From Actinomycetes bacterium (GTDB lineage Bacteria; Actinomycetota; Acidimicrobiia; Acidimicrobiales; Microtrichaceae): 37,068 nt of DNA. The translations under genes and the position numbers were made by a program. This document shows positions 11,475 through 33,361 of the stretch, in pieces. Location: assembly GCA_030621865.1 (NCBI GenBank), contig JAUXGW010000004.1, positions 1-37,068 on the forward strand, read 5' to 3'. Numbering within the stretch: the stretch's first letter is position 1; each line of letters opens with the position of its first letter. The notes below the pieces were generated by a model that was not told the DNA's origin, searched no databases, and saw nothing but the letters and a program-made list of their open reading frames with translations.

Positions 11475-11491
11475 CCCACCCGGAGGTGGGA

Positions 11492-12376: not shown

Positions 12377-12426
12377 CTTCGTGCTGAGAAGCCTCAGATG
12401 GTCGGGCCCGAACGGGCTGTGCGCAA

Positions 12427-13551
12427 TCAGAACTCGATGACTCCGCGGATGTTCTTGCCGGCACGAAGGTCTTCGTACCCCTGATTCACGTCGTCGAGCT
12501 TGTACCGATTGGTGATCAGCCCGTCGAGTTTCAGGACACCTTCGCGGTACATCGACAACAAGGCGGGAATGTCAGCTCGCGGGTTACCTGAGCCGAACAC
12601 GGTGCCAGTAACGGTCTTGTTCATCATCGAGAGCATGAACAGGTTCAGTTGCACGTCGGACTCGAGCAGTCCTGCCAGGCCTGTGACCACAAGGCTGCCG
12701 CCCTTGTCCACCAGGTTGATGGCCGGCTCGATCAGGTCTCCGGTGACCACACCGAGGGAGAGAACCACGGTCTGGCACATCTCGCCCCAAGTGAGTTCGG
12801 GAACCGCCGCGAGCGCTTCGTCGATTGAGGCGAAGGTGTGGGTGGCGCCCATCTCCATCGCCTTCTCGCGCTTGAACTCCACCGGGTCCACAGCGATGAT
12901 CCGCTTTGCCCCTGCCATCCTGGCGCCCTGCACGGCGTTGATCCCCACGCCGCCGATTCCGATTATGGCTGCGTTGTCACCCGGTTGGACCTTTCCTGCA
13001 TGTACCGCTGATCCCCAGCCGGTTGCCACGCCACAGCTGATCAGGGCCACGGCGTCGAGGTTGAGGTCCTTCTCGACTTTCACCACCGACTCCTCGGCGA
13101 CCAGGAGCCTTTCGGAGAAGGTCCCGAGCTGAGCGAATCGGGCTGCCTCATCCTCGCCAATGGTGTGGGAGATGTCGCCCTCGGCGCGGGTCATCATCTG
13201 GTTGTCGAACAATTTGGAGCCTTCGTCACAAAGGTTCTGTCGACCTGTGGAACAGAAGCGGCAGTGGCCACACGACGGTATGAAGGACATCGCCACGTGA
13301 TCACCGGGTTCAACCGCGCTCACGCCGGTGCCCACCGCGCTGACCACACCGGAACCCTCGTGGCCGCCGATGAAAGGGAAGTGGGGAGCCGGCATGTCGC
13401 CGGTAACCACGTGTTCGTCGGAATGACATAGGCCTGCATATGCCGTTTCGATCACGACTTCACCCGGACCCGGGTCGTCCATGACCATGTCTTCGACTTT
13501 CCATTCCTGTTCGGGTCCCCACAGAACGGCAGCACGGGTGTTGGTAGGCAT
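12427..13551 (-). CDS. Zn-dependent alcohol dehydrogenase, NDMA-dependent / mycofactocin-associated type (Rxyl_3153-like)
   Basis: 'AAVLWGPEQEWKVEDMVMDDPGPGEVVIETAYAGLCHSDEHVVTGDMP', 'GGHEGSGVVSAVG', structural-Zn cysteines 'CGHCRFCSTGRQNLCDEG'; divergent from mftA. Confidence 0.9.
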   Translation of the reverse strand: MPTNTRAAVLWGPEQEWKVEDMVMDDPGPGEVVIETAYAGLCHSDEHVVTGDMPAPHFPFIGGHEGSGVVSAVGTGVSAVEPGDHVAMSFIPSCGHCRFCSTGRQNLCDEGSKLFDNQMMTRAEGDISHTIGEDEAARFAQLGTFSERLLVAEESVVKVEKDLNLDAVALISCGVATGWGSAVHAGKVQPGDNAAIIGIGGVGINAVQGARMAGAKRIIAVDPVEFKREKAMEMGATHTFASIDEALAAVPELTWGEMCQTVVLSLGVVTGDLIEPAINLVDKGGSLVVTGLAGLLESDVQLNLFMLSMMNKTVTGTVFGSGNPRADIPALLSMYREGVLKLDGLITNRYKLDDVNQGYEDLRAGKNIRGVIEF

Positions 13552-13747
13552 GAATTCCCCTGATCTTGGATGACGGTGCTCGTCTGACAGTAACGGTGCC
13601 TGGATGGCAGAAACCGCCAGACTGCCTTTTCTAGCTCAGCAGATCCCCCTTCGGGTAACCGATCGCCGCAGCACAAGGTATCCCTCCCTGCATCCCAGGC
13701 TCCTCTGGCTGCCACGGTGGGGTCCGCCCGCGGATACGCTCGGACCC

Positions 13748-13906
13748 ATGAGTCCAGTTACATCCGAAGAACCAGTTACATCCGAAGATGCAGTGTCCGA
13801 AGATGCAGTGAATGCCGATGGTGCCTCTGTCCAGAAAGCGGAGATGCTTGAAGAGGAACTCCTCGTGGAAGAGGTTTCGATCGACGGCATGTGCGGCGTC
13901 TACTGA
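13748..13906 (+). CDS. mftA: Mycofactocin precursor peptide
   Basis: Short peptide ending 'EELLVEEVSIDGMCGVY*', matching the conserved MftA C-terminus; followed by mftB and mftC. Confidence 0.96.
   Translation: MSPVTSEEPVTSEDAVSEDAVNADGASVQKAEMLEEELLVEEVSIDGMCGVY
13754..13810. repeat. Nested tandem repeats in mftA leader (18 bp x2, then 15 bp x2)
   Basis: ccagttacatccgaaga(a/t) x2, overlapping tccgaagatgcagtg x2 (perfect). Confidence 0.95.
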
Positions 13907-13914
13907 CCACGGAG

Positions 13915-14247
13915 ATGGCTCAGCCGAATCCCGCCGAGCTGAATCCCACCGAGTTGAATCCCACCGAGCTGAATCCCGCCGAGTTGAATCCCAAAGAGCC
14001 TTATGAACTTCACCCTCAGGTGAGCCTGCGACCCGAACGGTTCGGCGCGCTTGCCTACCACTTCGGCAATCGAAAACTCTCCTTCGTGAAGAACGCGGAT
14101 CTGCTCCGGGTTCTGGAGCAGCTCGATCAGGAGCCGAGCGTGGAAGCCGCCCTTGATGCAATGGCGATCGAAGAAAGCCGGCGCCCCGGGTTCATCAAGG
14201 CCCTCGAGACACTCGAGGAATCGGAGATGGTCCGTGCCCGCTCCTGA
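13915..14247 (+). CDS. mftB: Mycofactocin biosynthesis chaperone (RRE-like)
   Basis: 'YELHPQVSLRPERFGALAYHFGNRKLSFVKNADLLRVLEQL' typical MftB; position between mftA and mftC. Confidence 0.95.
   Translation: MAQPNPAELNPTELNPTELNPAELNPKEPYELHPQVSLRPERFGALAYHFGNRKLSFVKNADLLRVLEQLDQEPSVEAALDAMAIEESRRPGFIKALETLEESEMVRARS
13927..14001. repeat. 15-bp repeat x5 in mftB 5' end, encoding (NP[A/T]EL)n
   Basis: aatcc(c)gccgagctg-type units read directly; last unit degenerate. Confidence 0.95.
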
Positions 14248-15415
14248 ATCCCTGCTGTCGGAGCAGCCTCTGGCGGCCACGAGAGGTTTGGTGGAAGAGT
14301 TCAAGGAGGGCCTTGATGCCCCGATCTGTCTCACTTGGGAACTGACCTATGCGTGCAATCTGGCGTGTGTGCACTGCCTTTCATCTTCGGGGCGGACCGA
14401 CCCGCGGGAGTTGAGCACGGACGAATGTTTCGGAGTGATTGATGAACTCCGGAAGCTGAAGGTGTTCTACGTGAACATGGGGGGCGGAGAACCGATGCTG
14501 CGTCCCGACTTCTTCGAGATCCTCACCTACGCCGCGGCTCACGATGTTGGAGTGAAGTTCTCCACCAACGGCACGTACATCAACGCTGCCGCGGCGGAGC
14601 GGCTTGCGGCGATGGACTATCTCGACATCCAGGTGTCACTCGACGGTGCAGACGCCGATGTGAATGACCTCATCCGTGGTGAGGGTTCCCACGCCAGCGC
14701 TCTGGCGGCAATGGAAAACCTTGCAGCCGCGAACTTCGGACCGTTCAAGATCTCCGTGGTGGTCACCCGGGAAAACGTTGACCAACTTGACCAGTTCCGA
14801 CGGTTGGCGGATTCGTTCGGCGCGCAACTACGGCTCACGAGATTTCGACCTTCCGGTCGGGGAGCGGACACCTGGGATCGCCTGCATCCCACCCAGGATC
14901 AGCAGCGCCGGCTTTATCACTGGCTGATCGATCGACCCGATGTGCTCACCGGCGACTCGTTCTTCCACCTTTCGGCGCTGGGCAAGGAATTGCCGGGCTT
15001 GAATCTGTGTGGTGCCGGCAGAGTTGTCGCCCTGATTGATCCCGTCGGGGACGTGTACGCCTGTCCTTTTGTGATTCACGACGAGTTTCTCGCCGGCAAC
15101 CTGCGTGATGCCGGTGGATTCACGAAGATCTGGCGCCGAAGTGACTTGTTCACCTCACTGCGTGAACCCGGCAGCCCCGGCGCCTGCGCAAGTTGTGGCA
15201 GCTACGACGCCTGCCAGGGTGGCTGCATGGCCTCAAAGTTCTTCGTCGGACTGGATCTGTCGGATCCCGATCCTGAATGTGTTCACGGACACGCTGACGA
15301 ACTGCTTGCCGAACTCGCCGAAGGGCGCGGTCTCAACGACACGACGCCGAAGTCGTCGCAGGATCATTCGCGTCCCGGCGTGCCGATTCCGGTGGCCGTG
15401 AAGATGCGACGCTGA
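14234..15415 (+). CDS. mftC: Mycofactocin radical SAM maturase
   Basis: 'CNLACVHC' radical SAM CxxxCxxC; '[15 protein letters not shown]'; SPASM cysteines '[21 protein letters not shown]...[18 protein letters not shown]'; GTG start overlapping mftB. Confidence 0.95.
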
Positions 15416-18529: not shown

Positions 18530-20494
18530 TTGAAACTCCTTGAGCCGCTGAAGCTGGGCGCAGTGATCGCCCCGAACCGTGTGGTGTTCGGTGCGCACGA
18601 GACGAACCTGGGCAGGGATCGTTCCATTTCCGAACGCCATCTCGCGTACTACCTGTCCCGCGCCAAAGGAGGCGCAGGGGTGATCGTCACCGAAGAAGCC
18701 TCGGTTCATGAATCGGATTGGCCGTATGAACGTGCTCCGCTGGCAGTCGATTGTGCCGATGGGTGGTCCAGGGTTTCGGACGCGTGCCACAACGAATCTT
18801 CGGTTGTCCTGGCCGCGCTGAATCACGCCGGCGGTCAGGGGACTTCCCACTGGAGTCAGCGGGAACTCTGGGCGCCCGGTCGGGTTCCGGAGGTCAATAC
18901 CCGGGAAGTACCGAAGTTGATGGAGCAATCCGATATCGACGCCGTTGTCAGCGGATTTGGCTCCGCAGCGTCCATTGCGGTTTCTGCCGGCTGTGATGGA
19001 GTGGAGATCAGCGCCGGTCAGTTCTCCCTGGTGAGGCAGTTCCTGTCAGGACTGACCAACACCAGAGACGATCAGTATCGCGATCGATCCTTGTTCGCCA
19101 AACAGGTGATCCGTGCGGTTCGACGGGCGATCGGCGCGGACAAGGTGATCTCGTTCCGGCTGTCCTGTGACGAGTTGGCGCCATGGGCCGGGATCACTCC
19201 GGAGATGGCGGCCGAGTTGGCAGCGGACTTCGTTGCGGACACCGACGAGGCCCGAATCGATCTGCTCACAGTGGTTCGCGGCTCTATATTCAGCGCAGGA
19301 TCCACCCGCCCCGATGGCCACGACGCCCCGGGATTCAATCTGGAACTCTGTCGGTCGATCCGTTCGGCGGTTCGCGAGGTTGCAGGAGATCGGGTTCCCG
19401 TGGTTGCACAGGGTTCGATCGTGGACACTTCGCAGGCCGAGTGGGCCATCGAAGATGGTGTGGCCGACGCGGTCGAGATGACCCGTGCCCAGATGGCTGA
19501 CCCGAATCTGGTGAACAAGGCCGCAATGGGGCGGGCCGAGCGCATCCGCCCCTGCGTGTTGTGCAATCAGATGTGCATGGTGCGCGACAACCGCAACCCG
19601 ATGGTCACCTGTGTGGTCAATCCGATGTCGGGCCATGAGTTCGAGGACGAACCTCTGGTGGGTACTGCGACGATAGCGAGCGAGGTCCAGGTGGTCGGTG
19701 GCGGCGCGGCGGGGATGGAGTCTGCGCGGGTCGCCAGCATCCGCGGGCACACAGTGCGGTTGTTCGAAGCTTCTGATTCATTGGGTGGTGAACTTCTCCA
19801 GATCGCGAAGTTGCCGGGACGCGACAGGTTTTCCCTGTTTGCAGACTGGCTTGCGGCCGAGGTGCATGAGTTGGGTGTCGAGGTCAATACTTCGATGGAA
19901 GCGATTCCAGCAGAACTCGATTCCACCTCGCACGTGATTGTCGCCACGGGCAGCAGGATCGGTGATCCCACCTACGCCGTCACCAAGGCGGCACAGGTGC
20001 TCAGTGCAGGTGACGTTCTCGCTGCCGGGGACCCGACAGGCCAGGAAGGCGATCTGCCGAATGGAGCGGTCCTTGTCTGGGATCCCATCGGTGGCCCGGT
20101 CGGAATCGGGGTTGCCGAACTTCTGCTTGCGGCAGGTCGGGAAGTCCATCTGGCGACACCGGATTACATCATCGGCAATGAACTCGCCAGAGCAGGTGAT
20201 CTCGGGCCTGCCAACGCCCGCCTGGCCCAGGCCGGCCTGCACGCGCACCGGCGCTGTTCGCTGCTGAGCGTCAAGAAGGGGACTGCAACCCTCGCCGACC
20301 GATTCTCGGAGGAACTGCTCGAGGTTCCGGTGGAGTGGGTTGTTGATGCCGGACACAGATTGCCCGAAGACAATCTGTTCCATGAACTCGCCGCCGCAGG
20401 TTTCAAGGCATCCCAGGCGGGCGACTCCGTGGCACCCCGGACGGTTCACGAGGCCATTCTCGAAGGACGCCGTCGAGCCCTCGACCTCGGCTGA
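18530..20494 (+). CDS. FadH/OYE-family flavin oxidoreductase (mycofactocin system OYE type)
   Basis: 'LGAVIAPNRVVFGAHETNLG', FeS motif 'CVLCNQMCMVRDNRNPMVTC', NAD(P) motif 'VVGGGAAGMESARVA'; TTG start. Confidence 0.88.
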   Translation: MKLLEPLKLGAVIAPNRVVFGAHETNLGRDRSISERHLAYYLSRAKGGAGVIVTEEASVHESDWPYERAPLAVDCADGWSRVSDACHNESSVVLAALNHAGGQGTSHWSQRELWAPGRVPEVNTREVPKLMEQSDIDAVVSGFGSAASIAVSAGCDGVEISAGQFSLVRQFLSGLTNTRDDQYRDRSLFAKQVIRAVRRAIGADKVISFRLSCDELAPWAGITPEMAAELAADFVADTDEARIDLLTVVRGSIFSAGSTRPDGHDAPGFNLELCRSIRSAVREVAGDRVPVVAQGSIVDTSQAEWAIEDGVADAVEMTRAQMADPNLVNKAAMGRAERIRPCVLCNQMCMVRDNRNPMVTCVVNPMSGHEFEDEPLVGTATIASEVQVVGGGAAGMESARVASIRGHTVRLFEASDSLGGELLQIAKLPGRDRFSLFADWLAAEVHELGVEVNTSMEAIPAELDSTSHVIVATGSRIGDPTYAVTKAAQVLSAGDVLAAGDPTGQEGDLPNGAVLVWDPIGGPVGIGVAELLLAAGREVHLATPDYIIGNELARAGDLGPANARLAQAGLHAHRRCSLLSVKKGTATLADRFSEELLEVPVEWVVDAGHRLPEDNLFHELAAAGFKASQAGDSVAPRTVHEAILEGRRRALDLG

Positions 20495-20610: not shown

Positions 20611-22506
20611 GTGTCCACTGCGAAGTCGTCGTCCGTGAAGCCGTCCGAAGAAATCGAAAACGTGGTGATCAGGCTCGCCGGGGACTCCGGCGACGGAATG
20701 CAGTTGACCGGCAACCAGTTCACCGCTGTGAGCGCCCTCGCCGGCAACGATTTGGCCACCCTGCCGGACTTTCCGGCAGAAATCAGGGCCCCAGCCGGAA
20801 CCATGGCGGGTGTATCTGCTTTTCAGGTTCACATCTCTTCGGAGGACATTTCCCATCCCGGTGACAAGGCCGATGTGTTGGTCGCCATGAATCCGGCGGC
20901 GTTGCGCTCGGAGCTTTCGAAGGTCCATTCCGATGCCACTTTGATCATCAACACGGATGAGTTTGGCGAGCGGGAGCTGGAAAAGGCCGGTTATGACTCG
21001 AATCCACTCGACGACGACTCGCTCGAGGGCTACTACGTGATCGACGTTCCGATGACCTCGCTGACGGTGACAGCAGTGAAGGAGCTGGGAGCCAAGCGAC
21101 GCGACGCGGAACGGTCCAAGAACTTCTTTGCCCTCGGTCTGCTCTGCTGGATGTACAGCCGGAATCCCGACGACGTGAAGGACTGGATCGACGAGCGCTT
21201 CGCTTCGGATGACCTGATCCGCCGTTCCAACGTCACTGCGTTCGACGTGGGCCATGCCTTCGGCGAGACCACGGAGCAGATATCGATCACACATGTGGTG
21301 GAATCCGCGGATCATCCGCCGGGTACCTACCGCAACGTCAACGGAAACACTGCTCTGGCCTGGGGAATGATCGCGGCCACGCAGTTGAGCGGACTCCAGT
21401 CCTTTCTGGGTTCGTATCCCATCACACCCGCGTCCGACATCCTCCACGAACTGTCCAAGCACCCTGCGGCGGCTTTCCGCACGTTCCAGGCCGAAGACGA
21501 GATCGCGGCTGTCACATCTGCCATTGGAGCATCCTTCGCCGGTGACCTGGCCTGGACCACCACTTCGGGTCCCGGAATGGCACTCAAGGGAGAGGCGATG
21601 GGCCTTGCGGTATCACTCGAGTTGCCTCTGGTGATCGTGAACATCCAGCGCGGTGGACCTTCCACCGGGTTGCCGACGAAGACCGAGCAATCTGATCTCT
21701 TTCAGGCGATGTATGGCCGGCATGGAGAATCTCCGATGCCGGTGATTGCCGCCCGCCGCCCGGCGGACTGCTTCGAGTGTGCCATCGAGGCGGCTCAGGT
21801 TGCGTTGCGGTATCGCACTCCGGTGATCCTCCTGTCGGACGGATATCTGGGCAACAGCTCGGAGCCCTGGCGGATTCCTGATGTGGACGACTTGCCGGAT
21901 CTGAGTGTGGAGTTCGCCACCGAGTCGAATCACGAGAATCCTGACGGGTCGATGGACTTCTGGCCGTACCTTCGCGATGAGGCAACCTTGGCGAGGCCGT
22001 GGGCGATACCCGGCACACCGGGACTCGAGCACCGCATCGGAGGCATCGAGAAGCAGGACGGCACCGGTGACATCTCCTATGACGCCGTCAATCATCAACT
22101 GATGACCGATCTGCGCGCCGAGAAGATTGCGCGGATTGCGGACGATCTCCCGCCGCCGGAATACACGGGCGATCTCGATGCCGAGGTGCTCCTGGTCGGT
22201 TGGGGATCCACCTGGGGGACGATTGCATCTGCGGTCGAAAGACTCCGCAAGGAAGGCATCCTGGTTGCTCATCTGCATCTCAGGTATATCAATCCACTTC
22301 CGAAGGAAGTGGGAGAGATCCTTCGCAGCCATCGGTCGGTGATTGTGCCCGAGTTGAACATGGGGCAGCTCTCCAGGATGCTCCGGGCCGAGTTCCTGGT
22401 GGACGCCCAGCCGCTGAACAAGGTTGCCGGGCTTCCGTTCACGGTTGGCGAAATTGAGGCGGCCGTGCGAAAAGCTGTGCACGGAGACGATGGGGGATCG
22501 AAATGA
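20611..22506 (+). CDS. korA: 2-oxoacid (2-oxoglutarate):ferredoxin oxidoreductase, gamma/alpha fusion
   Basis: 'VIRLAGDSGDGMQLTGNQF', 'GSYPITPASDILHELSKH', 'EDEIAAVTSAIGASFAG', 'RGGPSTGLPTKTEQSDL'. Confidence 0.93.
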   Translation: MSTAKSSSVKPSEEIENVVIRLAGDSGDGMQLTGNQFTAVSALAGNDLATLPDFPAEIRAPAGTMAGVSAFQVHISSEDISHPGDKADVLVAMNPAALRSELSKVHSDATLIINTDEFGERELEKAGYDSNPLDDDSLEGYYVIDVPMTSLTVTAVKELGAKRRDAERSKNFFALGLLCWMYSRNPDDVKDWIDERFASDDLIRRSNVTAFDVGHAFGETTEQISITHVVESADHPPGTYRNVNGNTALAWGMIAATQLSGLQSFLGSYPITPASDILHELSKHPAAAFRTFQAEDEIAAVTSAIGASFAGDLAWTTTSGPGMALKGEAMGLAVSLELPLVIVNIQRGGPSTGLPTKTEQSDLFQAMYGRHGESPMPVIAARRPADCFECAIEAAQVALRYRTPVILLSDGYLGNSSEPWRIPDVDDLPDLSVEFATESNHENPDGSMDFWPYLRDEATLARPWAIPGTPGLEHRIGGIEKQDGTGDISYDAVNHQLMTDLRAEKIARIADDLPPPEYTGDLDAEVLLVGWGSTWGTIASAVERLRKEGILVAHLHLRYINPLPKEVGEILRSHRSVIVPELNMGQLSRMLRAEFLVDAQPLNKVAGLPFTVGEIEAAVRKAVHGDDGGSK

Positions 22507-23531
22507 CGACGACCGAGACAACAACGACCGCAGTGGACATTCCCACCACCAAACGTGCCGACTGGCAGAGCGACCAGGAGGTCCGGTGGTGTCCGGGTTG
22601 TGGGGACTACTCGATCCTCTCAGCCATGCAGTTCGCTCTTCCCGAGATGGGTATTCGACGAGAAGACACGGTTGTGGTGGGCGGAATCGGCTGCGCAGCG
22701 AGATTCCCGTATTACATGAACACCTACGGGATACACGGAATCCACGGACGTGCTCCCGCCATCGCCACCGGTGTTGCCCTGGCGAACCCCGACCTTTCGG
22801 TGTTCGTGGTGGGCGGAGATGGAGATTTGCTCTCCATCGGCGGAAACCATCTGCTGCATGCACTTCGCCGAAACATCAACATGACGATCCTGTTGGTCAA
22901 CAACCGGATCTACGGTCTCACCAAAGGCCAGTATTCGCCCACTTCGGAACAGGGAAAGGTGACCAAGTCATCTCCCCGGGGATCAGAAGATTCACCCCTG
23001 TTGCCGTTGTCGATTGCCCTCGGGGCGGACGCCACATTTGTGGCCCGCACCCACGACATGGACCGTCAACACATGATGGAGGTGTTCAAACGGGCGCATG
23101 CCCATCCGGGTGCTGCCTTTGTCGAGGTTCTTCAGAACTGCAATGTGTTCAACAACCATGCCTACGAATCGATCACAGCCAAGGCGAATCGTGAAGGAAT
23201 GATCATTCCACTTCGTCAGGGAGAGCCAATTCGTTTCGGCCCCGACGACAGCCTCGGCGTTGTCCTCGATCCCCGGCACGGTGCGGTTGTGGTGAACACT
23301 GCCGACGTCTCGGAGGATGAACTGCTTGTTCACAACGAGGCCAGGGACCATCCCTCGGTCGCGTTCGCTCTTTCTCGTCTCTCCCCCAACATGGACGAAC
23401 CCACTCCAATGGGAGTCTTCAGGGCAGTGGACCGCCCGGTCTACGGCCGCAACCCCGTGGAGACCGAACCGCCGGGGAGACAACTCATCTCCGATCTGTT
23501 GCATTCAGGCACCACCTGGGAAGTGGACTGA
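22503..23531 (+). CDS. korB: 2-oxoacid:ferredoxin oxidoreductase beta subunit
   Basis: 'WCPGCGDYSILSAMQ', 'IGCAARFPYYMNTYGIHGIHGRAPAIATG', TPP motif 'GGDGDLLSIGGNHLLHALRRNINMTILLVNN'. Confidence 0.94.
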   Translation: MTTTETTTTAVDIPTTKRADWQSDQEVRWCPGCGDYSILSAMQFALPEMGIRREDTVVVGGIGCAARFPYYMNTYGIHGIHGRAPAIATGVALANPDLSVFVVGGDGDLLSIGGNHLLHALRRNINMTILLVNNRIYGLTKGQYSPTSEQGKVTKSSPRGSEDSPLLPLSIALGADATFVARTHDMDRQHMMEVFKRAHAHPGAAFVEVLQNCNVFNNHAYESITAKANREGMIIPLRQGEPIRFGPDDSLGVVLDPRHGAVVVNTADVSEDELLVHNEARDHPSVAFALSRLSPNMDEPTPMGVFRAVDRPVYGRNPVETEPPGRQLISDLLHSGTTWEVD

Positions 23532-24092: not shown

Positions 24093-26042
24093 ATGGCGGA
24101 GCGTCTCCTGTGGTCACCACAACAGATCGGACCTGTCACGGTTCGCAATCGTGTGGTTTTTGCCGCACACCTGACGAACTACGCCAAAGACGGTCTGCCG
24201 ACTCTGCAGCACGCTGATTACTACGCCGAGAGGGCAGCGGGCGGAGCCGGACTCATCATCACCGAGGAGCACTCGACTCACCCCACTGACTGGCCCTACG
24301 AGAAGCTGATCCACGGATTCAACCGGGAGGTCATTCCCCGGTATCGACGAATGACCGAAGCTGTTCACCGTCACGGCGTTCCAATTTTCGCCCAGATCAA
24401 TCACAACGGCGGACAGGCATCGTCGATGTATTCGCGCCTTCCCGTGTGGGCACCCTCACCAGTGGCAGACCCGTTGTTCAGGGAAGTGCCGAAGGCTGTT
24501 GACCATGCCGAGATCGCCGAAATCGTGGAGTCCTACGCACGGGTTGCCCAGCACTGCGCCGAGGGTGGCTTCGACGGCATTGAACTCCAGTGTTCGCACT
24601 CTTCCATCGTGCGGGGATTTCTTTCGCCGGCCACCAACAAACGTCGCGATTCCTACGGCGGGACGCTCGCACGCAGGGCCCGGATCCTGCTGGAGATCGT
24701 GTCGGCCGTACGCTCCGCCATCGGCCCGGATCTGGCCCTGGGCGTTCGCATCTGCGGTGACGAACTGATCGAAGGCGGAACCACGATCGAGGAGGCAGTC
24801 GAGGTGGCGCGACTGGTGGAGCTCAGCGGCCACGTCGACTACATCAACACTTCCATCGGAGTGGCCACAGCCAGCCTCTTCATGATCGAAGCATCGATGC
24901 ACATTCCTCCCGGTTACTCGATGTTCATCCCATCCGCGATCCGCAAGGCTGTCGACCTGCCAGTGGTGGGTGTCGGCCGTTTCAAGGATCCGATCCAGGC
25001 CGAGCGAGCACTTGCTGACGGCCACTGTGATCTTGTCGGAGTTGTCCGCGGTCAGATAGCCGACGCTGACTTCGTGGCCAAGGCCCGCTCCGGTCACTCC
25101 GACGACACCCGTCTTTGTCTCTCCTGCAACCAGGAATGTGTTGGTCGCATGGGTCTCAACCGGTGGCTCGGTTGCATCGAAAACCCGCGGACCGGCCGCG
25201 AATCACTCGGCGTCGGCATTGCCAGGCCGACTCGTGTTCCCCGCAAGGTTTTGGTGATTGGTGCCGGCCCGGCGGGATTGCAGGCGGCGATCGCAGCGGC
25301 TCGCAATGGGCATGTCGTGACGGTTCTGGAGGCCGCCTCCGCAGCTGGGGGACAGGTCGCGTTGGCAGCTTCGGTTCCGAATCGTGCCGAATTCGGTGAC
25401 TTGGTGCGAAACCAGCTGCACGAATGCAACCGAATGGGTGTGGCCATTGAATACGGCGTCAGAGCTGACCTGGCAGAGGTGATTCGACGCGATCCCTCGC
25501 AGGTGATCATCGCCACCGGATCGGTGGCCGCTCGCCCCTGGTGGGCTCCACCAGAGGCTGAGTGGATTGTGGATGTTCGCGACGTCCTCACTGGGGACGT
25601 TCATCCCAGCGGGTCCGTGATGGTTCTCGACGAACTCGGCTTCCATCAGGCCACTTCCGTCGCTGAGTTGCTGGCTGACCGCGGATGTGAGGTGGAGATG
25701 GTGACTCCGGGAATGGTCGTGGGTCAGGATCTCGGAGTGACGCTGGATCTGGAGAATTTCTGGATCCGGGCACAATCCAAGGGCATCGTTCAGTCCACAG
25801 AACTGGTCCCGATGGGAGTCGATGGTCATGTCGTGAACCTGCAACACCATCCGACCGGCCGGATGGAAACCCGCGAACCGGACTGGCTGGTGCTGGCGAT
25901 TCCTTCCGAGCCTGCCGACGAGTTGTATCTCCAGCTGCACAAGGCGGGAATGCAGGCTGAACGAGTGGGTGATGCAGTGGCTCCGAGACGTGCCCATGCC
26001 GCCGTGGTCGACGGCGAGCGTGTCGGTGCAGCGATTGTCTGA
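24093..26042 (+). CDS. FadH/OYE-family flavin oxidoreductase, second paralogue (mycofactocin system OYE type)
   Basis: 'IGPVTVRNRVVFAAHLTNYAKDGLPTLQHADYYAERAAGGAGLIITEEHSTHPTDWPYEK', 'CLSCNQECVGRMGLNRWLGC', 'VIGAGPAGLQAAIAAARNGH'. Confidence 0.9.
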   Translation: MAERLLWSPQQIGPVTVRNRVVFAAHLTNYAKDGLPTLQHADYYAERAAGGAGLIITEEHSTHPTDWPYEKLIHGFNREVIPRYRRMTEAVHRHGVPIFAQINHNGGQASSMYSRLPVWAPSPVADPLFREVPKAVDHAEIAEIVESYARVAQHCAEGGFDGIELQCSHSSIVRGFLSPATNKRRDSYGGTLARRARILLEIVSAVRSAIGPDLALGVRICGDELIEGGTTIEEAVEVARLVELSGHVDYINTSIGVATASLFMIEASMHIPPGYSMFIPSAIRKAVDLPVVGVGRFKDPIQAERALADGHCDLVGVVRGQIADADFVAKARSGHSDDTRLCLSCNQECVGRMGLNRWLGCIENPRTGRESLGVGIARPTRVPRKVLVIGAGPAGLQAAIAAARNGHVVTVLEAASAAGGQVALAASVPNRAEFGDLVRNQLHECNRMGVAIEYGVRADLAEVIRRDPSQVIIATGSVAARPWWAPPEAEWIVDVRDVLTGDVHPSGSVMVLDELGFHQATSVAELLADRGCEVEMVTPGMVVGQDLGVTLDLENFWIRAQSKGIVQSTELVPMGVDGHVVNLQHHPTGRMETREPDWLVLAIPSEPADELYLQLHKAGMQAERVGDAVAPRRAHAAVVDGERVGAAIV

Positions 26043-26077: not shown

Positions 26078-27001
26078 CTACCAGTCGATCTGATCACAAC
26101 CCGTGTGGCTGACCGGCTCAACCTGCAATGTGGCGTGGCGGATTCCGTGCTTCTCGGCGAGCACATCCCGGCTCCGGTCGAGGATCGAATGTGCGTCAAT
26201 GTCCTCTTCTGTGGCCAGGTGGGCGGTCAGAACGTCCATGTCTGTGGTGAGGGTCCACACATGCAGGTCATGAACGTTGACGACGCCGTCAAGTGATTCC
26301 AGGTCAGTTCGTATCTGATCCAGGTCGACTCCCTTCGGGGCCGACTGAAGCAGGATGTTCAGTGCCTCCCGGCCGAGCCTGATTGCCCTGGGGAGTATCC
26401 ACAGTCCGATCGCCAGGCCGATCCAGGCATCGAACACCGGATTGCCGGTGATGATTATCAGCGCTCCGCCGGCAACCACACCCACCGAGCCGACTGCATC
26501 GGCCAGGACTTCGAGTCGGGCCCCTGCAGCGGCAAGTGACGTCCCACCGGCGAGGATCTTGAATGAGACCAGATTCGCCACGAGGCCTATCGCGCCCACC
26601 ACGAGCACAGGCCAACCGGGAACTTCAGGGGGATTCTGAATTCTTTCGATCGCTTCGAAGAGCGCCCAGATTCCAACCATCACCAGGAGTGCGGCATTCG
26701 CGAGGGCGGACAGCACCTCCAGGCGGTACAAACCGAACGTTCGGTCATCCCGGGTGGGCCTTGATGCGAGAGTCACCGCCGCGAGCGCCAGGACGATTCC
26801 ACCCACATCGGTGAGCAGATGTGCCGCGTCGGTGAGCAGGGACAGTGATCCGGTGGTGAATCCGAAAACGACCTGAAGCACCAAGGTTGCCGAGGTGATC
26901 ACCAAGGCGATCGTGAGCGGCTTCCTGGCCGCTTCACCGGACCGTGCAAGCGCGGTGCCGTGGTCGTGGCCGTGGCCGGCCCGTCCCCGATCCTCAGTCA
27001 T
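26078..27001 (-). CDS. Cation diffusion facilitator (CzcD/ZnT-like) with His-rich N-terminus
   Basis: 'GHGHDHG', 'LTDAAHLLTDVGGIVLALAAV', 'LEVLADAVGSVGVVAGG', C-terminal 'VNVHDLHVWTLTTDMDVLTAHL'. Confidence 0.92.
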   Translation of the reverse strand: MTEDRGRAGHGHDHGTALARSGEAARKPLTIALVITSATLVLQVVFGFTTGSLSLLTDAAHLLTDVGGIVLALAAVTLASRPTRDDRTFGLYRLEVLSALANAALLVMVGIWALFEAIERIQNPPEVPGWPVLVVGAIGLVANLVSFKILAGGTSLAAAGARLEVLADAVGSVGVVAGGALIIITGNPVFDAWIGLAIGLWILPRAIRLGREALNILLQSAPKGVDLDQIRTDLESLDGVVNVHDLHVWTLTTDMDVLTAHLATEEDIDAHSILDRSRDVLAEKHGIRHATLQVEPVSHTGCDQIDW

Positions 27002-27698
27002 GGTTCGGCTCGAGGCGATCTGCGGCGTCAACCAGTGAGTCGGTCAACTGCGCATGGATCTCCTCACCTTGGCGGGCGGTCGCGGTTTCGGGATTGCCGA
27101 GTACCCCGTTGGTTGACACGGCGAGTACCCCGGACTCCGTCAGTTCCCTTTTCAGGTGCTCCACGGGCATTGTGTTTCCCGCATCAGCGAGATCCATCGC
27201 CACAGCTTCGGGGCGAAGGTGGAGCATGAGGGATGTCTCTGTGTGCCCGGCGTGGGCGTCGGCGTCGGGAAGGTGAGGGTTCCACGCGTCGACTGTGCGA
27301 CCCTCGGTGCGCAGTAGTGAAACAGCGTTGCTCACAGCCGCCACATTGCCACCGTGGCCGTTGACCAACAACACCGCGGCGAATGGCTTCGGCAACTCTG
27401 AGTCCTGCGGGGGGATCGCGCTGCGAACGAGCTCCACGATGAGGTCCCTCAGGATGTCCGTACCGATTGAGATCGTGCCGGGGAATCCCTGATGCTCGCC
27501 GGAAGCCCCCAGGGAAACAGTGGGAGCCACCACAACGCTGGGGCGCAGTCGAGCCAGGGAAAGGCTCATTTGCTCGGCGATGATGGTGTCGGTGTTGAGA
27601 GGCAGATGCGGACCGTGCTGTTCGCAGCTGCCCAGCGGCACCGCCAGGATTCGGCTGCCGGTGACCTCTGGCCAACGCATGGCCGCAAGTTCAGTCAT
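26994..27698 (-). CDS. mftE: Mycofactocin precursor peptide peptidase (creatininase family)
   Basis: 'LAVPLGSCEQHGPHLPLNTDTIIAEQ', 'GASGEHQGFPGTISIGTDIL', 'LVNGHGGNVAAV', 'DAHAGHTETSLMLHLRP'. Confidence 0.92.
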   Translation of the reverse strand: MTELAAMRWPEVTGSRILAVPLGSCEQHGPHLPLNTDTIIAEQMSLSLARLRPSVVVAPTVSLGASGEHQGFPGTISIGTDILRDLIVELVRSAIPPQDSELPKPFAAVLLVNGHGGNVAAVSNAVSLLRTEGRTVDAWNPHLPDADAHAGHTETSLMLHLRPEAVAMDLADAGNTMPVEHLKRELTESGVLAVSTNGVLGNPETATARQGEEIHAQLTDSLVDAADRLEPNHD

Positions 27699-28578
27699 CG
27701 GAACCCAGGTATCCCCACTCCGCGAGGCTGTCCATGATCATCCGGGCCGCCTCCGAAGGGTCGGCCTTGACGGTCCGCGGCGGCGACGTGTCGGAAAGCG
27801 AACCGGTCAACTCGAGGATCCGGTCGAATGCGGATTCTCCACCTGGTCCCGCAAGGGTGCGTGCCCTGGGGCGCCAGGGAGTGGTTCTCGGGGGATCCGA
27901 TTCACCGTGGCTGTGGCCACCGCGAACTTCCACCTCGGCGTCGGTATGGGCCGATTCGCCCATTGAGGCGTCCAGCGCTGCCCGCCGCAGGGTGGCGATC
28001 CCGCCTTCCACCGAGATCACGGCGGGAATCGGGATCCTGATGCGTTCCCGTCGTGCTCCGTCGAGTCGTCGAATCGCGACGATCGTGTGATCGTCAGCGG
28101 GTTCCGCAGACACGGGTTCCACAGACAGCAGTCCGAGGGCCTGGCAGAAATCCAGATGGTGAGCGAGCATCGCCGGAACTGCACCGGATGAACGGTCATA
28201 GGACATGTCACCGCAGACCACGAGATCCACATCGAGATCCGTTTGTCCGAGCGTTCGCACCAACAACTCGGCCACGGTGGCCGTTTCCAGCTGTCCGGGA
28301 ATGTCCACCCGAACGGTTCTCGAGAACCCGGAAGCCGCTACTTCCAGAAGTGAGCGGTCTGCGTTGGCAGGTCCGGCGCACACGAGGACAGCGGTTCCGG
28401 ACCAGGCTTCGGCGATACTCAGTGCTGTTTCGGCGGCCGACAGGTCGGCAGCGGAGAATCCCCCGCCACGGCGCGAAGGGGCCAAGGTGCCCTGCACCGA
28501 ATCGAGCTCCGGCCTGAGGTCAACCCACTTGATGCAGGCCGCCACCACTGGTGACAGGAACGTGTCCTTCGGGTTCAT
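27691..28578 (-). CDS. etfB: Electron transfer flavoprotein beta-like subunit (FixA/EtfB; mycofactocin-associated)
   Basis: 'VVAACIKWVDLRPELD', 'DLSAAETALSIAEAW', 'DLVVCGDMSYDRSSGAVPAMLAHHLDFCQAL'; adjacent to FixX/FixC/EtfA genes. Confidence 0.82.
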   Translation of the reverse strand: MNPKDTFLSPVVAACIKWVDLRPELDSVQGTLAPSRRGGGFSAADLSAAETALSIAEAWSGTAVLVCAGPANADRSLLEVAASGFSRTVRVDIPGQLETATVAELLVRTLGQTDLDVDLVVCGDMSYDRSSGAVPAMLAHHLDFCQALGLLSVEPVSAEPADDHTIVAIRRLDGARRERIRIPIPAVISVEGGIATLRRAALDASMGESAHTDAEVEVRGGHSHGESDPPRTTPWRPRARTLAGPGGESAFDRILELTGSLSDTSPPRTVKADPSEAARMIMDSLAEWGYLGSDD

Positions 28579-28868
28579 GTCTTGTGGAACACCACTCCGT
28601 GGCCACCCTCCGGATAGGACCAGTCGATGGCACCTTCGGTGTTGCATGCCAGGGAGCAGGCGCCGCATTCGAAGCACTGTTCGTAGTTGAAGACGATTCC
28701 GCCATCGGAGGTGGGGACGAACAGGTTCGCGGGGCAAGCGGTTATGCAGCCGCGGACACTGCAGTCGCGACACAACGTGTCGTCCACTGTGATGTGGGCG
28801 CTTTCACCCACACGGAACTCCACCGAGTCCATGCGAGTTTCGAAGCTTATTTGTGAGTAGCCGCTCAT
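28575..28868 (-). CDS. fixX: FixX-like ferredoxin
   Basis: 'CRDCSVRGCITACPANLF' and 'CFECGACSLACN'; ATGA-type overlaps with neighbours. Confidence 0.9.
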   Translation of the reverse strand: MSGYSQISFETRMDSVEFRVGESAHITVDDTLCRDCSVRGCITACPANLFVPTSDGGIVFNYEQCFECGACSLACNTEGAIDWSYPEGGHGVVFHKT

Positions 28869-30235
28869 CCGAAGCCCCTGATCGCCTTGACGGACTCACG
28901 GATCAGGTCCCGGAATCGCACGCCGTTGGTTTTCATCTCACTGCGGATTATTCGACGCAAGCCGGGTTTGGGCGCCGGATTGTCGACGTGGAAGAACTGC
29001 TCCGCCACTCCGCAGGCCATTCCCGGGAGCCTGGTCTGGGCCAGGTCGCCCATCACCAGGTGAGGGATCTCACGCAGCTTCCGGTGATCGGAGAGCACGA
29101 AGGATGATTCCAGCCGTGTCCGGTATCCCTCGAGACCTTCAGCGGAAGTGTCACCTCTTTGTATTGCGCGGTGGGTGGCTCGGCCGGCGGCCGCACCGGA
29201 GCCGATCGCGAAGTTCACTCCCTCGAGCCAGACTCCGGCAGCCAGACACATCGATGCGGCGTCGCCTGCAACCAGGAGTCCGTTGCCAATGAGCTCCGGC
29301 ATGGCCTCGTAGCCGCCTTCGGGAATCATGTGTGCCGAGTATTCCCTGACTTCTCCGCCTTCCACGAGGGGAGCGATTCCCGCGTGCTGCTTCATCTGGT
29401 GCAGGAGTTGCTCAGGTCTCTTGTCGCCCTTGGCCAGTTCGGGCAACGACAGCACCAAACCCACCGACACGGTGTCGCGATTGGTGTAGACGAATCCGCC
29501 ACCGGGCACCCCACCTGTGCAACCAAGGATCTCGATGTCCACGCCGTGATCACCGCGTACCCCGAATCTGGCGTCGATCACTTCGGATGGAAGGGCAATC
29601 GTCTCCTTCACACCCACTGTGAAGTTGGCAGGATCCAGGTTCTCGTACAGGCCCGCTTCTCTGGCGAGGAAGGAGTTGGCACCGTCACAGGCGATCACGA
29701 CCTTGGCCCTCAATTCGCCGCCCGGCCTGTCCGTGGTGACTCCTACAACCTGTTCACCTTCGTGGATCAGCCCGGTTGCAGTGGTGGAACAGACCACGCG
29801 CGCCCCGGCCTCTGCAGCCTTGTCCGCGAGCCACTGATCGAAGTCCGGCCGGTAGGCAGTTGCACCGTTGTACGGAGGATCGCCCCACCGGTCGGAGCGG
29901 TAGTCGATGGTGAGGGCCTGATCGCCGCTGAGCATCATGGTCTGGCGCCGGGTCACCCAGCGCTGGATGGGAGCCTCTTCCCACCACTTCGGCACCAACG
30001 TGTCGAGGATTCGGCCGTAGATGACACCGCCGTACATGTTTTTGGATCCGGGAAAGGGTCCACGTTCGAGAAGCACCACTGAGTGGCCGTTGCGAGCCAA
30101 TTCCAGGGCTGCCGCGCTGCCGGCTGGACCGGCTCCGACGACGATCGCGTCCACTTCGGAGCCTGCTGCATCTGCACGTTGTAGTGGGTCTGGGCGCGGC
30201 GATCCCTCGGGGCGCGGCGATTCCCCGGGGATCAT
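28865..30235 (-). CDS. fixC: FixC-like ETF:quinone oxidoreductase family flavoprotein
   Basis: 'DAIVVGAGPAGSAAALELARNGHSVVLLERGPFPGSKNMYGGVIYGRIL', 'LLVAGDAASMCLAAGVWLEGVNFAIGSG'. Confidence 0.93.
   Translation of the reverse strand: MIPGESPRPEGSPRPDPLQRADAAGSEVDAIVVGAGPAGSAAALELARNGHSVVLLERGPFPGSKNMYGGVIYGRILDTLVPKWWEEAPIQRWVTRRQTMMLSGDQALTIDYRSDRWGDPPYNGATAYRPDFDQWLADKAAEAGARVVCSTTATGLIHEGEQVVGVTTDRPGGELRAKVVIACDGANSFLAREAGLYENLDPANFTVGVKETIALPSEVIDARFGVRGDHGVDIEILGCTGGVPGGGFVYTNRDTVSVGLVLSLPELAKGDKRPEQLLHQMKQHAGIAPLVEGGEVREYSAHMIPEGGYEAMPELIGNGLLVAGDAASMCLAAGVWLEGVNFAIGSGAAAGRATHRAIQRGDTSAEGLEGYRTRLESSFVLSDHRKLREIPHLVMGDLAQTRLPGMACGVAEQFFHVDNPAPKPGLRRIIRSEMKTNGVRFRDLIRESVKAIRGFG
30192..30227. 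repeat. 18-bp tandem repeat x2 at fixC 5' end (gggcgcggcgat[c/t]ccc..)
   Basis: Encodes 'ESPRPEGSPRPD'. Confidence 0.85.
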
Positions 30236-31152
30236 TGTGAACCTCCGGCACCCAGGAGCCGTTCGAGTTCGGTCAGCGTTTCGTTGGCGTCGCTGACGAT
30301 CGCAAGATCGGCCAGATCCATCATCGGGCAGTGAGGTTCGGTGTTCACCGAGATCATGTGCTGCGGCTGACCGAGTCCCGAGGTGTGCTGGACTGCTCCC
30401 GAGATGCCGAATGCCAGATACAGCTCGGGGTCCACCACAACTCCCGTGGTTCCGATCTGCCGGCTGTGCGGCAGCCAGCCTTTGTCGGTGATCACGCGTG
30501 TGGTCCCGACCGAGGCGTTCATGGCCTTGGCAATACGCCCCAGTTGTTCGAAGCGGTCCGCTGATTCCAGCCCGTTTCCTCCGCCGAGGATCCGCGGTGC
30601 TTCCGCCAGATCCATGGTTGTCACATCAGGAGGCAGCACCTCCAGAATCTCCGCATCGGGCACCGGCACGCTCCTGGGCGAGATCGAGGGAGTCAGGGCC
30701 ACGGGTTCGGGCAGGTCGATGTCCTGCGGTTGTGTCCCCCGGACTCCCGGTTGCAGGGTCACGATGCTTGCGCCGCCAAGAAGATGTTCCACCATCACGA
30801 TTCCCTGGAATCCGATGCAGGTGACGCCGTGGGGGCGAACTTCGATCGCACCGGCAAACAGAGGTCGTTCGAGCTGAGCTGCGAGGCGGGGCGCCAGGTC
30901 GCGGCCGTCGGGGCTGGCCGGCAGAAGCACGATGTCCTCTGCGAGTAGTTCATCGGCCAGTGAGGCCGCCCACATCCCCGGGGCAAAACCCGGTGTGTCC
31001 CAGTACTGGATTTCGGTGGCGATTCCCCTCAGCCCGGTCAGTGCCTCCAGTGGGGATTCCCCAACCAGCAGAACCCGGCCTCCGGCTTCGGCGACGGATT
31101 CAGCACCACCTGCGGGAAGTTCTCCGTCGCGAATCGGGACCACTGCGATCAT
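30232..31152 (-). CDS. etfA: Electron transfer flavoprotein alpha-like subunit (FixB/EtfA; mycofactocin-associated)
   Basis: C-terminal FAD-domain signature 'RQIGTTGVVVDPELYLAFGISGAVQHTSGLGQPQHMISVNTEPHCPMMDLADLAIVSD'. Confidence 0.9.
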   Translation of the reverse strand: MIAVVPIRDGELPAGGAESVAEAGGRVLLVGESPLEALTGLRGIATEIQYWDTPGFAPGMWAASLADELLAEDIVLLPASPDGRDLAPRLAAQLERPLFAGAIEVRPHGVTCIGFQGIVMVEHLLGGASIVTLQPGVRGTQPQDIDLPEPVALTPSISPRSVPVPDAEILEVLPPDVTTMDLAEAPRILGGGNGLESADRFEQLGRIAKAMNASVGTTRVITDKGWLPHSRQIGTTGVVVDPELYLAFGISGAVQHTSGLGQPQHMISVNTEPHCPMMDLADLAIVSDANETLTELERLLGAGGSQ

Positions 31153-31218
31153 TGGATGCCACGCTACCGTCCACGGAATATTCGGGATCAATCGAGCTGG
31201 CATGACACTCTTGGGGCG

Positions 31219-31986
31219 ATGAGTGAGCGTCTGGCTCTGGTCACCGGAGCAGCAAGGGGTATCGGCGCGGCCACGGCCATCAGGCTCGCCGAGGCCGGGG
31301 ACCGTGTGGTCTGCCTGGACATATGCGCGGATGACCCGACGCTCGACTACTCGTTCTCCACCTTCGAGGATCTGGCTGCGACCGTTGAAGCCTGTGGGGC
31401 CGGGGCGGAAGGTGTGGCCGGTGACGTCCGCGACCGGACCTCTCTCGCCGGATGCCTCGAGGACTACAGATTCGACGTGGTGGTGTGCGCCGCAGGCGCT
31501 GTCTGGGGCGGCAAGGAGTTGTGGGACACGCCGGAAGCAGCCTGGCGACAGATGATGGCAGTGAACCTCGATGGTGTGTTCAACACTGCGGGTGTGACCA
31601 TTCCGGCGATGATCGAATCGGAGAAGCCGGGGAGGTTCGTGGCCGTGGCATCAGCGGCATCAATGAGGGGATTACATCTCATGGGCGCGTACGCCGCCGC
31701 CAAGCATGGGGTTGTGGGGCTGATCAGATCACTGGCAGCCGACCTGGCCGACACGGGGGTAACCGCAAACGCAGTTGCCCCGGGAGCCACATCCACCGTG
31801 GTACTTGAAGCGTCTGCGGATGTTTATTCCCTGGAGGACTCTTCCGAGTTCGCCGATCACCACACGAACCAACGGGTACTGCAACCTGACGAGATCGCCG
31901 ATGCGATCGTCTGGTTGTGCTCCGGTGGTGCCTCGGCCGTCACGGGTTCGGTGGTTGCGGTGGATGGTGGAATGACTGCCACCTGA
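31219..31986 (+). CDS. Mycofactocin-coupled SDR family oxidoreductase
   Basis: 'LALVTGAARGIGAATAIRLAEAGDRVVCLDICADDPTLDYSFSTFEDLAATVEA' carries the insertion after the NAD-binding Asp typical of the MFT-coupled SDR subfamily; 'YAAAKHGVVGL' catalytic YxxxK. Confidence 0.9.
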   Translation: MSERLALVTGAARGIGAATAIRLAEAGDRVVCLDICADDPTLDYSFSTFEDLAATVEACGAGAEGVAGDVRDRTSLAGCLEDYRFDVVVCAAGAVWGGKELWDTPEAAWRQMMAVNLDGVFNTAGVTIPAMIESEKPGRFVAVASAASMRGLHLMGAYAAAKHGVVGLIRSLAADLADTGVTANAVAPGATSTVVLEASADVYSLEDSSEFADHHTNQRVLQPDEIADAIVWLCSGGASAVTGSVVAVDGGMTAT

Positions 31987-31987
31987 C

Positions 31988-33361
31988 ATGCCCCGTTCTT
32001 CATCGACCACGTTGCTGACCGTTTCCGCCGACCGCACACTGCGCAGGCTCGCACCCCGGGTGTGGGTGGGTGGAGCGCCGATGCGGATGTTCCGGGTGAG
32101 TGATGCAGGTGACGAACTTCTCGCCCGGTTGGCTTCTGATGAGCAGATTTCGGTCAACGGCGAGGCGGCCAAGCGCCTTCTGCGGCGTCTTGTTGATGCC
32201 GGGGCCGCCCATCCAGTGGTGGATGGTGTCCCTTCGCGATTCAGCGGTCGAGACGTGACCGCGGTGGTGGCGGTCCGCGACAATCCGGATGGCATCCGAT
32301 CGCTGGGCAACCTGTCTGCCAGTGTGGAATTTGTGGTGGTGGTTGACGACGGGTCCGGCGATCCGGGTGCTCATTCGGCCGCAGCGCGGGACATCGGCGC
32401 AAAGTACGTGCGCTTGGAGAGCTCCGGTGGACCGGGTGCCGCAAGGAACGCCGGCGCGAAGTTGGCGAGGACAGATCTGCTCGCGTTCGTTGATTCGGAT
32501 GTGGAGGTGACCACGCAGTGGTTGGTTCCCCTTCTTGCGCACTTTGAAGATGAGGCGGTGGAAGTGGTTGCACCGCGTGTCGGCACCCGGGACCGAGGCG
32601 ATCCGATCTCCGCTTATGAGGCGAACTCCTCACCTCTGGACTTGGGCTCCGAACCAGCCAATGTCCGGCCCGGCTCGATGGTCTCCTTCGTTCCGGCTGC
32701 GGCATTGCTGGTGCGCTCGGAGGCGTTCGCCGCACTCGGCGGATTCAATCCGGATCTCCGATTCGGCGAAGACGTCGACTTCGTCTGGCGTGTCGAGGCC
32801 GATGGGGGATCCATTCGGTACGAGCCGGCTTCGGAGGTGATGCACTTGCCAAGATCCACCTGGGCCGGATTGCTGCGCCAGAGGATCGACTACGGGTCGT
32901 CCGCGGCCGAACTGGCAGAGCGGCATCGCGGGAGCGTGCCGCCGGTCGTGCTCTCCCCGTGGAGTGCAGGTGTGTGGCTCAATGTGGTTGCCGGCCATCG
33001 GTTCAGGGCCTTGGTGATTGCAGCGTCCTCGGGTATTGCCCTGGCTCGGAAGCTCGATCAGGTGACTCCCGGGGTTGCACTGCGGCTTGTGATTGCCGGT
33101 CATCTGGGTGCCGGCCGCCAGCTTGCCAAGGCGGCGGTGCGCGAATGGTGGCCGGTGCTGGCGGTGGCGTCGCTGATGTCCCGCCAGGCCCGCCGCGCTG
33201 CACTGATGGCTGTTGCCGCCCGGGTTCTCGGCGACGGTCGACCGCCCGCTCAGCGCGTGATCGGAATTGTCGATGACATGGCCTACGGCGCGGGAGTGTG
33301 GAAAGGCGTCGTGCGGCGCAGATCCGTGAAGGCCCTGCTGCCCCGAATCACCCGCAGGTGA
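31988..33361 (+). CDS. mftF: Mycofactocin glycosyltransferase (GT2 type)
   Basis: 'VVVVDDGSGDPGAHS', 'GPGAARNAGAKLARTDLLAFVDSDVEV', 'GGFNPDLRFGEDVDFVWR'. Confidence 0.92.
   Translation: MPRSSSTTLLTVSADRTLRRLAPRVWVGGAPMRMFRVSDAGDELLARLASDEQISVNGEAAKRLLRRLVDAGAAHPVVDGVPSRFSGRDVTAVVAVRDNPDGIRSLGNLSASVEFVVVVDDGSGDPGAHSAAARDIGAKYVRLESSGGPGAARNAGAKLARTDLLAFVDSDVEVTTQWLVPLLAHFEDEAVEVVAPRVGTRDRGDPISAYEANSSPLDLGSEPANVRPGSMVSFVPAAALLVRSEAFAALGGFNPDLRFGEDVDFVWRVEADGGSIRYEPASEVMHLPRSTWAGLLRQRIDYGSSAAELAERHRGSVPPVVLSPWSAGVWLNVVAGHRFRALVIAASSGIALARKLDQVTPGVALRLVIAGHLGAGRQLAKAAVREWWPVLAVASLMSRQARRAALMAVAARVLGDGRPPAQRVIGIVDDMAYGAGVWKGVVRRRSVKALLPRITRR

Follow-up and report, generated by a model that had tools for sequence, protein, structure and literature searches.

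A candidate alternative premycofactocin synthase, OYE2-EtfAB-FixCX, in mycofactocin clusters without mftD

A 37,068-nt stretch of DNA from a member of the Microtrichaceae (contig JAUXGW010000004.1 of assembly GCA_030621865.1; assembly completeness, 92.7%), referred to here as the window, carries a mycofactocin gene cluster in which the peptidase gene mftE lies in a minus-strand operon with genes for an electron transfer flavoprotein (ETF) and a putative ETF:quinone oxidoreductase. The gene order is etfA-fixC-fixX-etfB-mftE-CDF, and all six frames are open. Why is the biosynthesis of mycofactocin joined to an electron transfer line, and which reaction supplies the electrons? The first-pass annotation of this DNA proposed that EtfAB and FixCX carry electrons from mycofactocinol, or from mycofactocin-dependent flavoenzymes, to quinone in place of the GMC-family enzyme MftG. 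Our analysis points to another reaction. The mycofactocin gene set of the window is otherwise complete but lacks mftD, which normally encodes the enzyme for the penultimate step, a point absent from that annotation, and we consider it probable (roughly two chances in three) that the neighboring OYE2 protein, together with EtfAB and FixCX, constitutes an alternative premycofactocin synthase with its own electron line, replacing MftD.

Distribution and gene order of the OYE2/ETF set

Families were assigned by comparing profile scores, in bits, with the curated cut-offs of the hidden Markov models. No mftD gene was found in the window, and the best score against the MftD model (TIGR03966) in the whole assembly was 263 bits, with a cut-off of 471. 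Of 397 actinobacterial genomes drawn evenly, 73 were MftC-positive. MftD was above cut-off in 57 of these and absent from 16, and mycofactocin FadH/OYE family oxidoreductase 2 (OYE2, TIGR03997) was present in 16/16 MftD-less genomes and 0/57 MftD genomes. Fourteen of the 16 OYE2 proteins scored above the cut-off; one, truncated by a contig end, reached 787 bits and one 764 bits (cut-off, 793). These 16 genomes, all MftC-positive, were the only OYE2 carriers among the 397. The mycofactocin-associated ETF alpha subunit (mft_etfA, NF038209) exceeded its cut-off in 12 of the 397 genomes, every one of them MftC-positive and MftD-less, and the mycofactocin ETF occurred in 0/57 MftD genomes. The remaining four MftD-less genomes harbor a divergent EtfA-FixC-FixX set beside OYE2 according to their gene maps; for EtfB, a profile match near MftC was obtained in three of them and a pairwise match in the other one. 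Several of the 16 MftD-less assemblies are near-complete (7 to 20 contigs), and the absence of MftD is therefore not an artifact of gaps. The mutual exclusion of MftD and OYE2 corresponds to a Fisher p value of 2e-16, which is a raw value uncorrected for shared descent and does not count as independent evidence.

The position of the set is that of mftD. Among 80 additional loci with OYE2, all of them in named genomes, the most common order was mftB-mftC-OYE1-OYE2-etfA-fixC-fixX-etfB-mftE-(SDR)-mftF, where SDR is a short-chain dehydrogenase/reductase gene. OYE2, EtfA, and FixC were all located between mftC and mftE in 17/17 loci showing both ends, and this interval holds mftD in mftD-type clusters (e.g., L044). 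The span originally annotated, 26078 to 31152, leaves out the OYE2 gene (24093 to 26042), a gene that relatives have as part of this module. OYE1, which shares 33% identity with OYE2, is common in these clusters but does not occur in all of them. It is missing from the f48 clusters (L027, L028, and L029), in which MftC is divergent (~330 bits to TIGR03962), OYE2 directly follows mftC, the Etf/Fix genes are present, and no mftE was recognized by pairwise search. OYE1 was rejected as a substitute for MftD because of this absence and because OYE1-like proteins are present in MftD genomes.

The two cluster types have been exchanged repeatedly. In a tree of 72 MftC sequences we counted 8 changes between the MftD and OYE2 types, or 6 when long branches are left out, and a single clade of OYE2-type MftC was rejected (p-AU, 1e-38). 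On well-supported branches there are three exchange pairs; MftD and OYE2 are opposite in each, and MftG is normally the same. Twelve MftC genes are plasmid-borne, four with mftD (Streptomyces NBC_00080, Mycolicibacterium chubuense, Tsukamurella, and Thermomicrobium) and eight with OYE2/ETF (six Streptomyces, Haloterrigena turkmenica, and Halolamina). Eight of these clusters were read gene by gene, none of which contains both mftD and OYE2/ETF; the other four, from Streptomyces, were placed by their OYE2 match. The proteins of the two haloarchaeal clusters have TIGR03997, mft_etfA, and mft_etfB as their best families, all with scores under the cut-off. Streptomyces linear plasmids (e.g., L181, L182, and L183) carry entire mycofactocin clusters of both types and are a likely route for the exchange.

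Saccharopolyspora ipomoeae (G437) harbors two mycofactocin clusters, one mftD-type (L129) and one OYE2/ETF-type (L117). Within the genus, MftD was found in 11/22 genomes, and those without it are mostly the larger genomes. S. erythraea, with a genome of ~8.2 Mb, therefore probably lacks MftD, and its status matters because PMC11162802 cites experimental evidence for the methylated mycofactocin that this species is reported to make. Several contigs of metagenome-assembled genomes titled Bifidobacterium breve (e.g., L054, L055, and L086) contain genes ~71-77% identical to the window OYE2 and look mislabeled.

Family and active-site residues of OYE2

Over its full length OYE2 comprises an OYE barrel, a [4Fe-4S] cluster region, and a dinucleotide domain, and it matches the structures 3k30, 6de6, 6l6j, and 2tmd. 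Its nearest full-length structures are those of 2-naphthoyl-CoA reductase (NCR), 2,4-dienoyl-CoA reductase (DCR), histamine dehydrogenase, 6-hydroxypseudooxynicotine dehydrogenase (Pno), and trimethylamine dehydrogenase (TMADH). The predicted model has a mean pLDDT of 75. Members of the TMADH/histamine dehydrogenase/Pno group hand electrons to ETF.

Residue conservation was counted over 96 OYE2 sequences. His169 of OYE2, which corresponds to His172 of TMADH, is unchanged in 96/96; the same His occurs in TMADH, histamine dehydrogenase, and Pno, whereas the column holds Glu in DCR and Val in NCR. At the position of the catalytic Tyr166 of DCR, all 96 sequences have Ser171, and the Trp-His motif of DCR (His252) is lost, with WHE replaced by VAT. 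The cluster ligands Cys342, Cys345, Cys349, and Cys361 are retained in 95 to 96 of the 96 sequences. In the OYE2 of G310 (L029, 8574-10520), Asp replaces the second of these Cys residues, the sole such case. The GxGxxG motif for NAD(P)H is not found at the second dinucleotide site of OYE2, which reads VLDELGFHQATSVAELLA and resembles, in an alignment to these two proteins, VYDDDHYYLGGVVAELLA of histamine dehydrogenase and VILNADTYFMAPSLAEKLA of TMADH. As in Pno, there is no Cys for covalent attachment of FMN. These residues place OYE2 in the TMADH/histamine dehydrogenase family, without the residues of the reductases.

Source and destination of the electrons

MftD carries out the oxidative deamination of AHDP, which accumulates upon loss of MftD (PMC7491314). 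Judging from the gene content, the exclusion of MftD, the position in the mftD slot, and the family membership and active-site residues of OYE2, all of which can be read from the sequences, we propose the following pathway for mftD-less clusters. MftE would release AHDP, the proposed substrate of OYE2. With its FMN and [4Fe-4S] cluster, OYE2 would dehydrogenate the C-N bond of AHDP or of glycosylated AHDP, and the resulting imine would hydrolyze to the keto amide premycofactocin. The [4Fe-4S] cluster of OYE2 would release the electrons singly to EtfAB, from which they would reach the quinone pool by way of FixC-FixX, a split ETF:quinone oxidoreductase. The substrate of OYE2, the direction of electron flow, and quinone as the acceptor are what we infer here. 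The reaction from AHDP to premycofactocin would then be the same as that of MftD, although MftD belongs to an unrelated family (LldD2-like lactate dehydrogenase flavoenzymes) and uses no ETF.

A precedent for this arrangement is Pno (also HisD) of the nicotine cluster of Agrobacterium tumefaciens S33, an FMN/[4Fe-4S] enzyme of the TMADH family whose own cluster encodes EtfAB and an ETF:quinone oxidoreductase (ETF-QO; euo), as the OYE2 module does (PMC7688666). The electrons of Pno go to quinone and the oxygen of its product comes from water, as we propose for OYE2, and its FMN is noncovalently bound, as predicted for OYE2 (PMC7688666). The Pno pathway differs in that it is catabolic and has a single-chain ETF-QO, whereas the OYE2 module lies in a cofactor biosynthetic cluster, has the split FixC/FixX, and would act on another substrate. 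OYE2 shares ~26% identity with 6l6j.

Several observations weigh against this proposal. The OYE2 gene and the ETF genes are separated in 16/80 loci and in 3 of the 16 MftD-less genomes. MftD is copresent in 3/50 OYE2 genomes, one of which has a second mftA-B-C-D-E cluster and two of which have an orphan mftD. Only three exchanges are well supported, insufficient for a significant sign test alone. The overall score puts OYE2 nearer to the reductases DCR and NCR (highest for DCR) than to the amine dehydrogenases; despite this top score, a role as a 2,4-dienoyl-CoA or 2-naphthoyl-CoA reductase was rejected, as both the catalytic Tyr and the Trp-His motif are missing. Tyr169 of TMADH corresponds to Gln166 in OYE2, and Asp267 of TMADH is not conserved. 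The latter two are substrate-site residues of TMADH itself; a different substrate is expected for OYE2, and we claim membership only in the wider family.

The MftG replacement of the first-pass annotation now appears unlikely. In its favor, MftG (TIGR03970) is missing from the whole assembly (best score, 25 bits; cut-off, 387), so that no mftG turned up elsewhere in the genome, which the annotation had regarded as counterevidence, and MftG is above cut-off in none of the 16 OYE2/ETF genomes. Electron transfer from mycofactocinol to quinone is also thermodynamically possible (premycofactocin [PMFT], -255 mV; menaquinone, -74 mV) (PMC11778925). Against it, MftG was above cut-off in 18 genomes, with one near-miss beside MftC, and ~35 MftC genomes, all MftD-positive, carry neither MftG nor the ETF set. 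The anticorrelation between mftG and etf/fix genes that the annotation expected did not emerge: the two do not covary in independent pairs of the tree, no genome of the window's order has MftG above cut-off whether or not it has the ETF set, and 2/50 OYE2 genomes carry MftG. MftG, which acts on mycofactocinol, also ties mycofactocin metabolism to the respiratory chain (PMC11778925), but the distribution of the ETF set does not follow that of MftG, and its replacement leaves the exclusion of MftD and the constant OYE2 partner unexplained. Since the ETF set excludes MftD and always has OYE2 as its partner, its electrons more likely come from making mycofactocin than from recycling mycofactocinol, in which the line may have an additional role. 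Of the earlier proposal, a route dedicated to mycofactocin, as seen from the MftC-positive status of all 12 mft_etfA genomes, and probably feeding quinone is thus retained, and the replacement of MftG is not.

It is similarly doubtful, and if anything a little more so, that OYE2/ETF/FixCX performs some other mycofactocin-linked oxidation while an unrelated or distant enzyme, such as an LldD-like paralog, takes the MftD step. The 263-bit match to the MftD model in the window's genome is such an LldD-like protein (C304), and some OYE2 genomes have orphan mftD genes. However, no MftD-family homolog was found at E <= 1e-30 in 9/16 MftD-less genomes, for which reason the paralog was rejected as MftD; similar paralogs are also present beside true MftD, and between mftC and mftE the module takes the place of mftD. 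Quite improbable is a bifurcating FixABCX, with NADH as its electron donor and reduced ferredoxin as a product that could, for example, serve the radical SAM enzyme MftC. The four subunits EtfA, EtfB, FixC, and FixX are those of the FixABCX/EtfABCX complexes of Thermotoga maritima and diazotrophs, and FixX has eight Cys residues. Yet the second flavin site of EtfB reads DRSSGAVPA in the window and DRGSGSVPA in most relatives, compared with DGDT(G/A)QVGP in the bifurcating proteins 7koe and 5ol2, and QVGP occurs in none of 40 EtfB relatives compared. Because EtfB lacks this motif, bifurcation was rejected and a one-way electron line is favored. Moreover, MftD-type clusters operate MftC without a FixABCX set, the partner here is OYE2 rather than an NADH/ferredoxin pathway, and bifurcation explains neither OYE2 nor the exclusion of MftD.

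Locus architecture and implications

The features of the window are listed in Table 1. As first annotated, the six minus-strand genes overlap at every junction, by 4 nt at etfA/fixC (EtfA stop, 30232; FixC start, 30235), fixC/fixX (28865/28868), and fixX/etfB (28575/28578) and by 8 nt at etfB/mftE (27691/27698) and mftE/CDF (26994/27001). Such overlaps are typical for genes that would be translationally coupled. The profile identities of EtfA, FixC, FixX, EtfB, and MftE likewise agree with the annotation's complete ETF plus FixCX module beside mftE, and its observation that the window contains no GMC protein was correct. FixC matches 7koe_C, the FixC/EtfC structure of T. maritima, and is encoded together with the ferredoxin FixX, as in a split ETF:quinone oxidoreductase. 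All 8 Cys residues of FixX are unchanged in 64/64 relatives. Elsewhere in the genome there is a further match to EtfA and EtfB of the ordinary kind, and the ETF of the mycofactocin operon is therefore a dedicated copy.

Table 1. Mycofactocin-related features of the window
Feature	Coordinates	Strand	Length	Scores and remarks
NDMA-dependent alcohol dehydrogenase, mycofactocin client enzyme	12427..13551	-		TIGR03989, 524 bits (cut-off, 440)
mftA, precursor	13604..13906	+		TIGR03969, 48 bits (cut-off, 25); C terminus SIDGMCGVY, IDGMCGVY-like
mftB	13891..14247	+		TIGR03967, 102 bits
mftC, radical SAM maturase	14153..15415	+		TIGR03962, 586 bits (cut-off, 265)
OYE1, mycofactocin FadH/OYE family oxidoreductase 1	18530..20494	+		TIGR03996, 724 bits (cut-off, 628)
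OYE2, mycofactocin FadH/OYE family oxidoreductase 2	24093..26042	+		TIGR03997, 962 bits (cut-off, 793)
CDF cation transporter	26078..27001	-		TIGR01297, 244 bits
mftE, peptidase	26994..27698	-		TIGR03964, 265 bits (cut-off, 172); releases AHDP
etfB, mycofactocin-associated ETF beta	27691..28578	-	295 aa	TIGR04503 (mft_etfB), 225 bits (cut-off, 200)
fixX, 2x[4Fe-4S] ferredoxin, FixC partner	28575..28868	-	97 aa	PRK15449, 47 bits, under cut-off; two complete Cys4 sets
fixC, ETF:quinone oxidoreductase-like flavoprotein	28865..30235	-	456 aa	FixC families, 332-335 bits (best PRK10015/FixC); 7koe_C, 263 bits
etfA, mycofactocin-associated ETF alpha	30232..31152	-	306 aa	NF038209 (mft_etfA), 371 bits (cut-off, 240); PF00766, 99 bits; FAD-binding domain intact
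Mycofactocin-coupled SDR, divergent from etfA	31219..31986	+		TIGR04504, 295 bits
mftF, glycosyltransferase	31988..33361	+		TIGR03965, 372 bits (cut-off, 280)

The SDR gene likely starts at 31219 and not at 31156, as the longer frame aligns with TIGR04504 only from its residue 25 onward. Between OYE1 and OYE2 lies a 2-oxoacid:ferredoxin oxidoreductase pair (KorAB; 20611-23531), an arrangement found only in the window's nearest relatives, and enoyl-CoA hydratase-like (ECH) and dihydropteroate synthase-like (FolP-like) genes with overlapping ends directly follow mftC (15415-17108). KorAB, ECH, the FolP-like protein, and CDF were rejected as parts of the module because they are confined to the window and its nearest relatives, apart from the CDF gene, which accompanies the module in 2/80 other loci as well and is a cotranscribed local passenger. 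Here (10530-13551), as in many mycofactocin loci, the gene for the NDMA-dependent alcohol dehydrogenase has as neighbors genes for a MoxR-type AAA ATPase and for a vWA protein, a pair that might activate this enzyme or load it with metal. A vWA gene also flanks the haloarchaeal modules (L185, 18305-18843; L186, 17883-18852).

The association of the ETF subunits, OYE1, and OYE2 with mycofactocin is already present in the names given by NCBI, and the first-pass annotation rightly treated the ETF genes as known in this respect (NF038209 and TIGR04503). A study of Saccharopolyspora reported 17 mycofactocin-like clusters with TIGR03997 and without mftD (BGCFlow 2024; PMC11162802); it left TIGR03997 as a protein of unknown function, included neither ETF nor a mechanism, and was limited to one genus. 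A literature search for mycofactocin and electron transfer flavoprotein found no paper. As far as this literature shows, the following are new: the mutual exclusion of MftD and the entire OYE2-EtfAB-FixCX module across the phylum, the location of this module where mftD would otherwise lie, the repeated exchange, the haloarchaeal cases, the amine dehydrogenase residues of OYE2, and the finding that a replacement of MftG is unlikely.

Our proposal gives a testable function to TIGR03997, NF038209, TIGR04503, and the linked FixC/FixX, which were previously labeled only as mycofactocin associated, and cultured carriers are available in Amycolatopsis, Saccharopolyspora, Streptomyces, and Haloterrigena. 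A large class of clusters escapes rules that require mftD, as BGCFlow reported in the case of antiSMASH. Lack of MftG does not by itself mark an organism as a carrier of the ETF set, so that the gap of 25% for MftG described in PMC11778925 persists. An OYE2-based synthase would explain how mftD-less clusters produce mycofactocin. On balance, we favor the view that the redox center of mycofactocin can be made by two interchangeable routes, MftD and OYE2-EtfAB-FixCX, which have been swapped repeatedly in actinobacteria and the second of which also occurs in haloarchaea. In organisms with the second route, the synthesis of the cofactor would itself feed the quinone pool, and the same line may reoxidize mycofactocinol.

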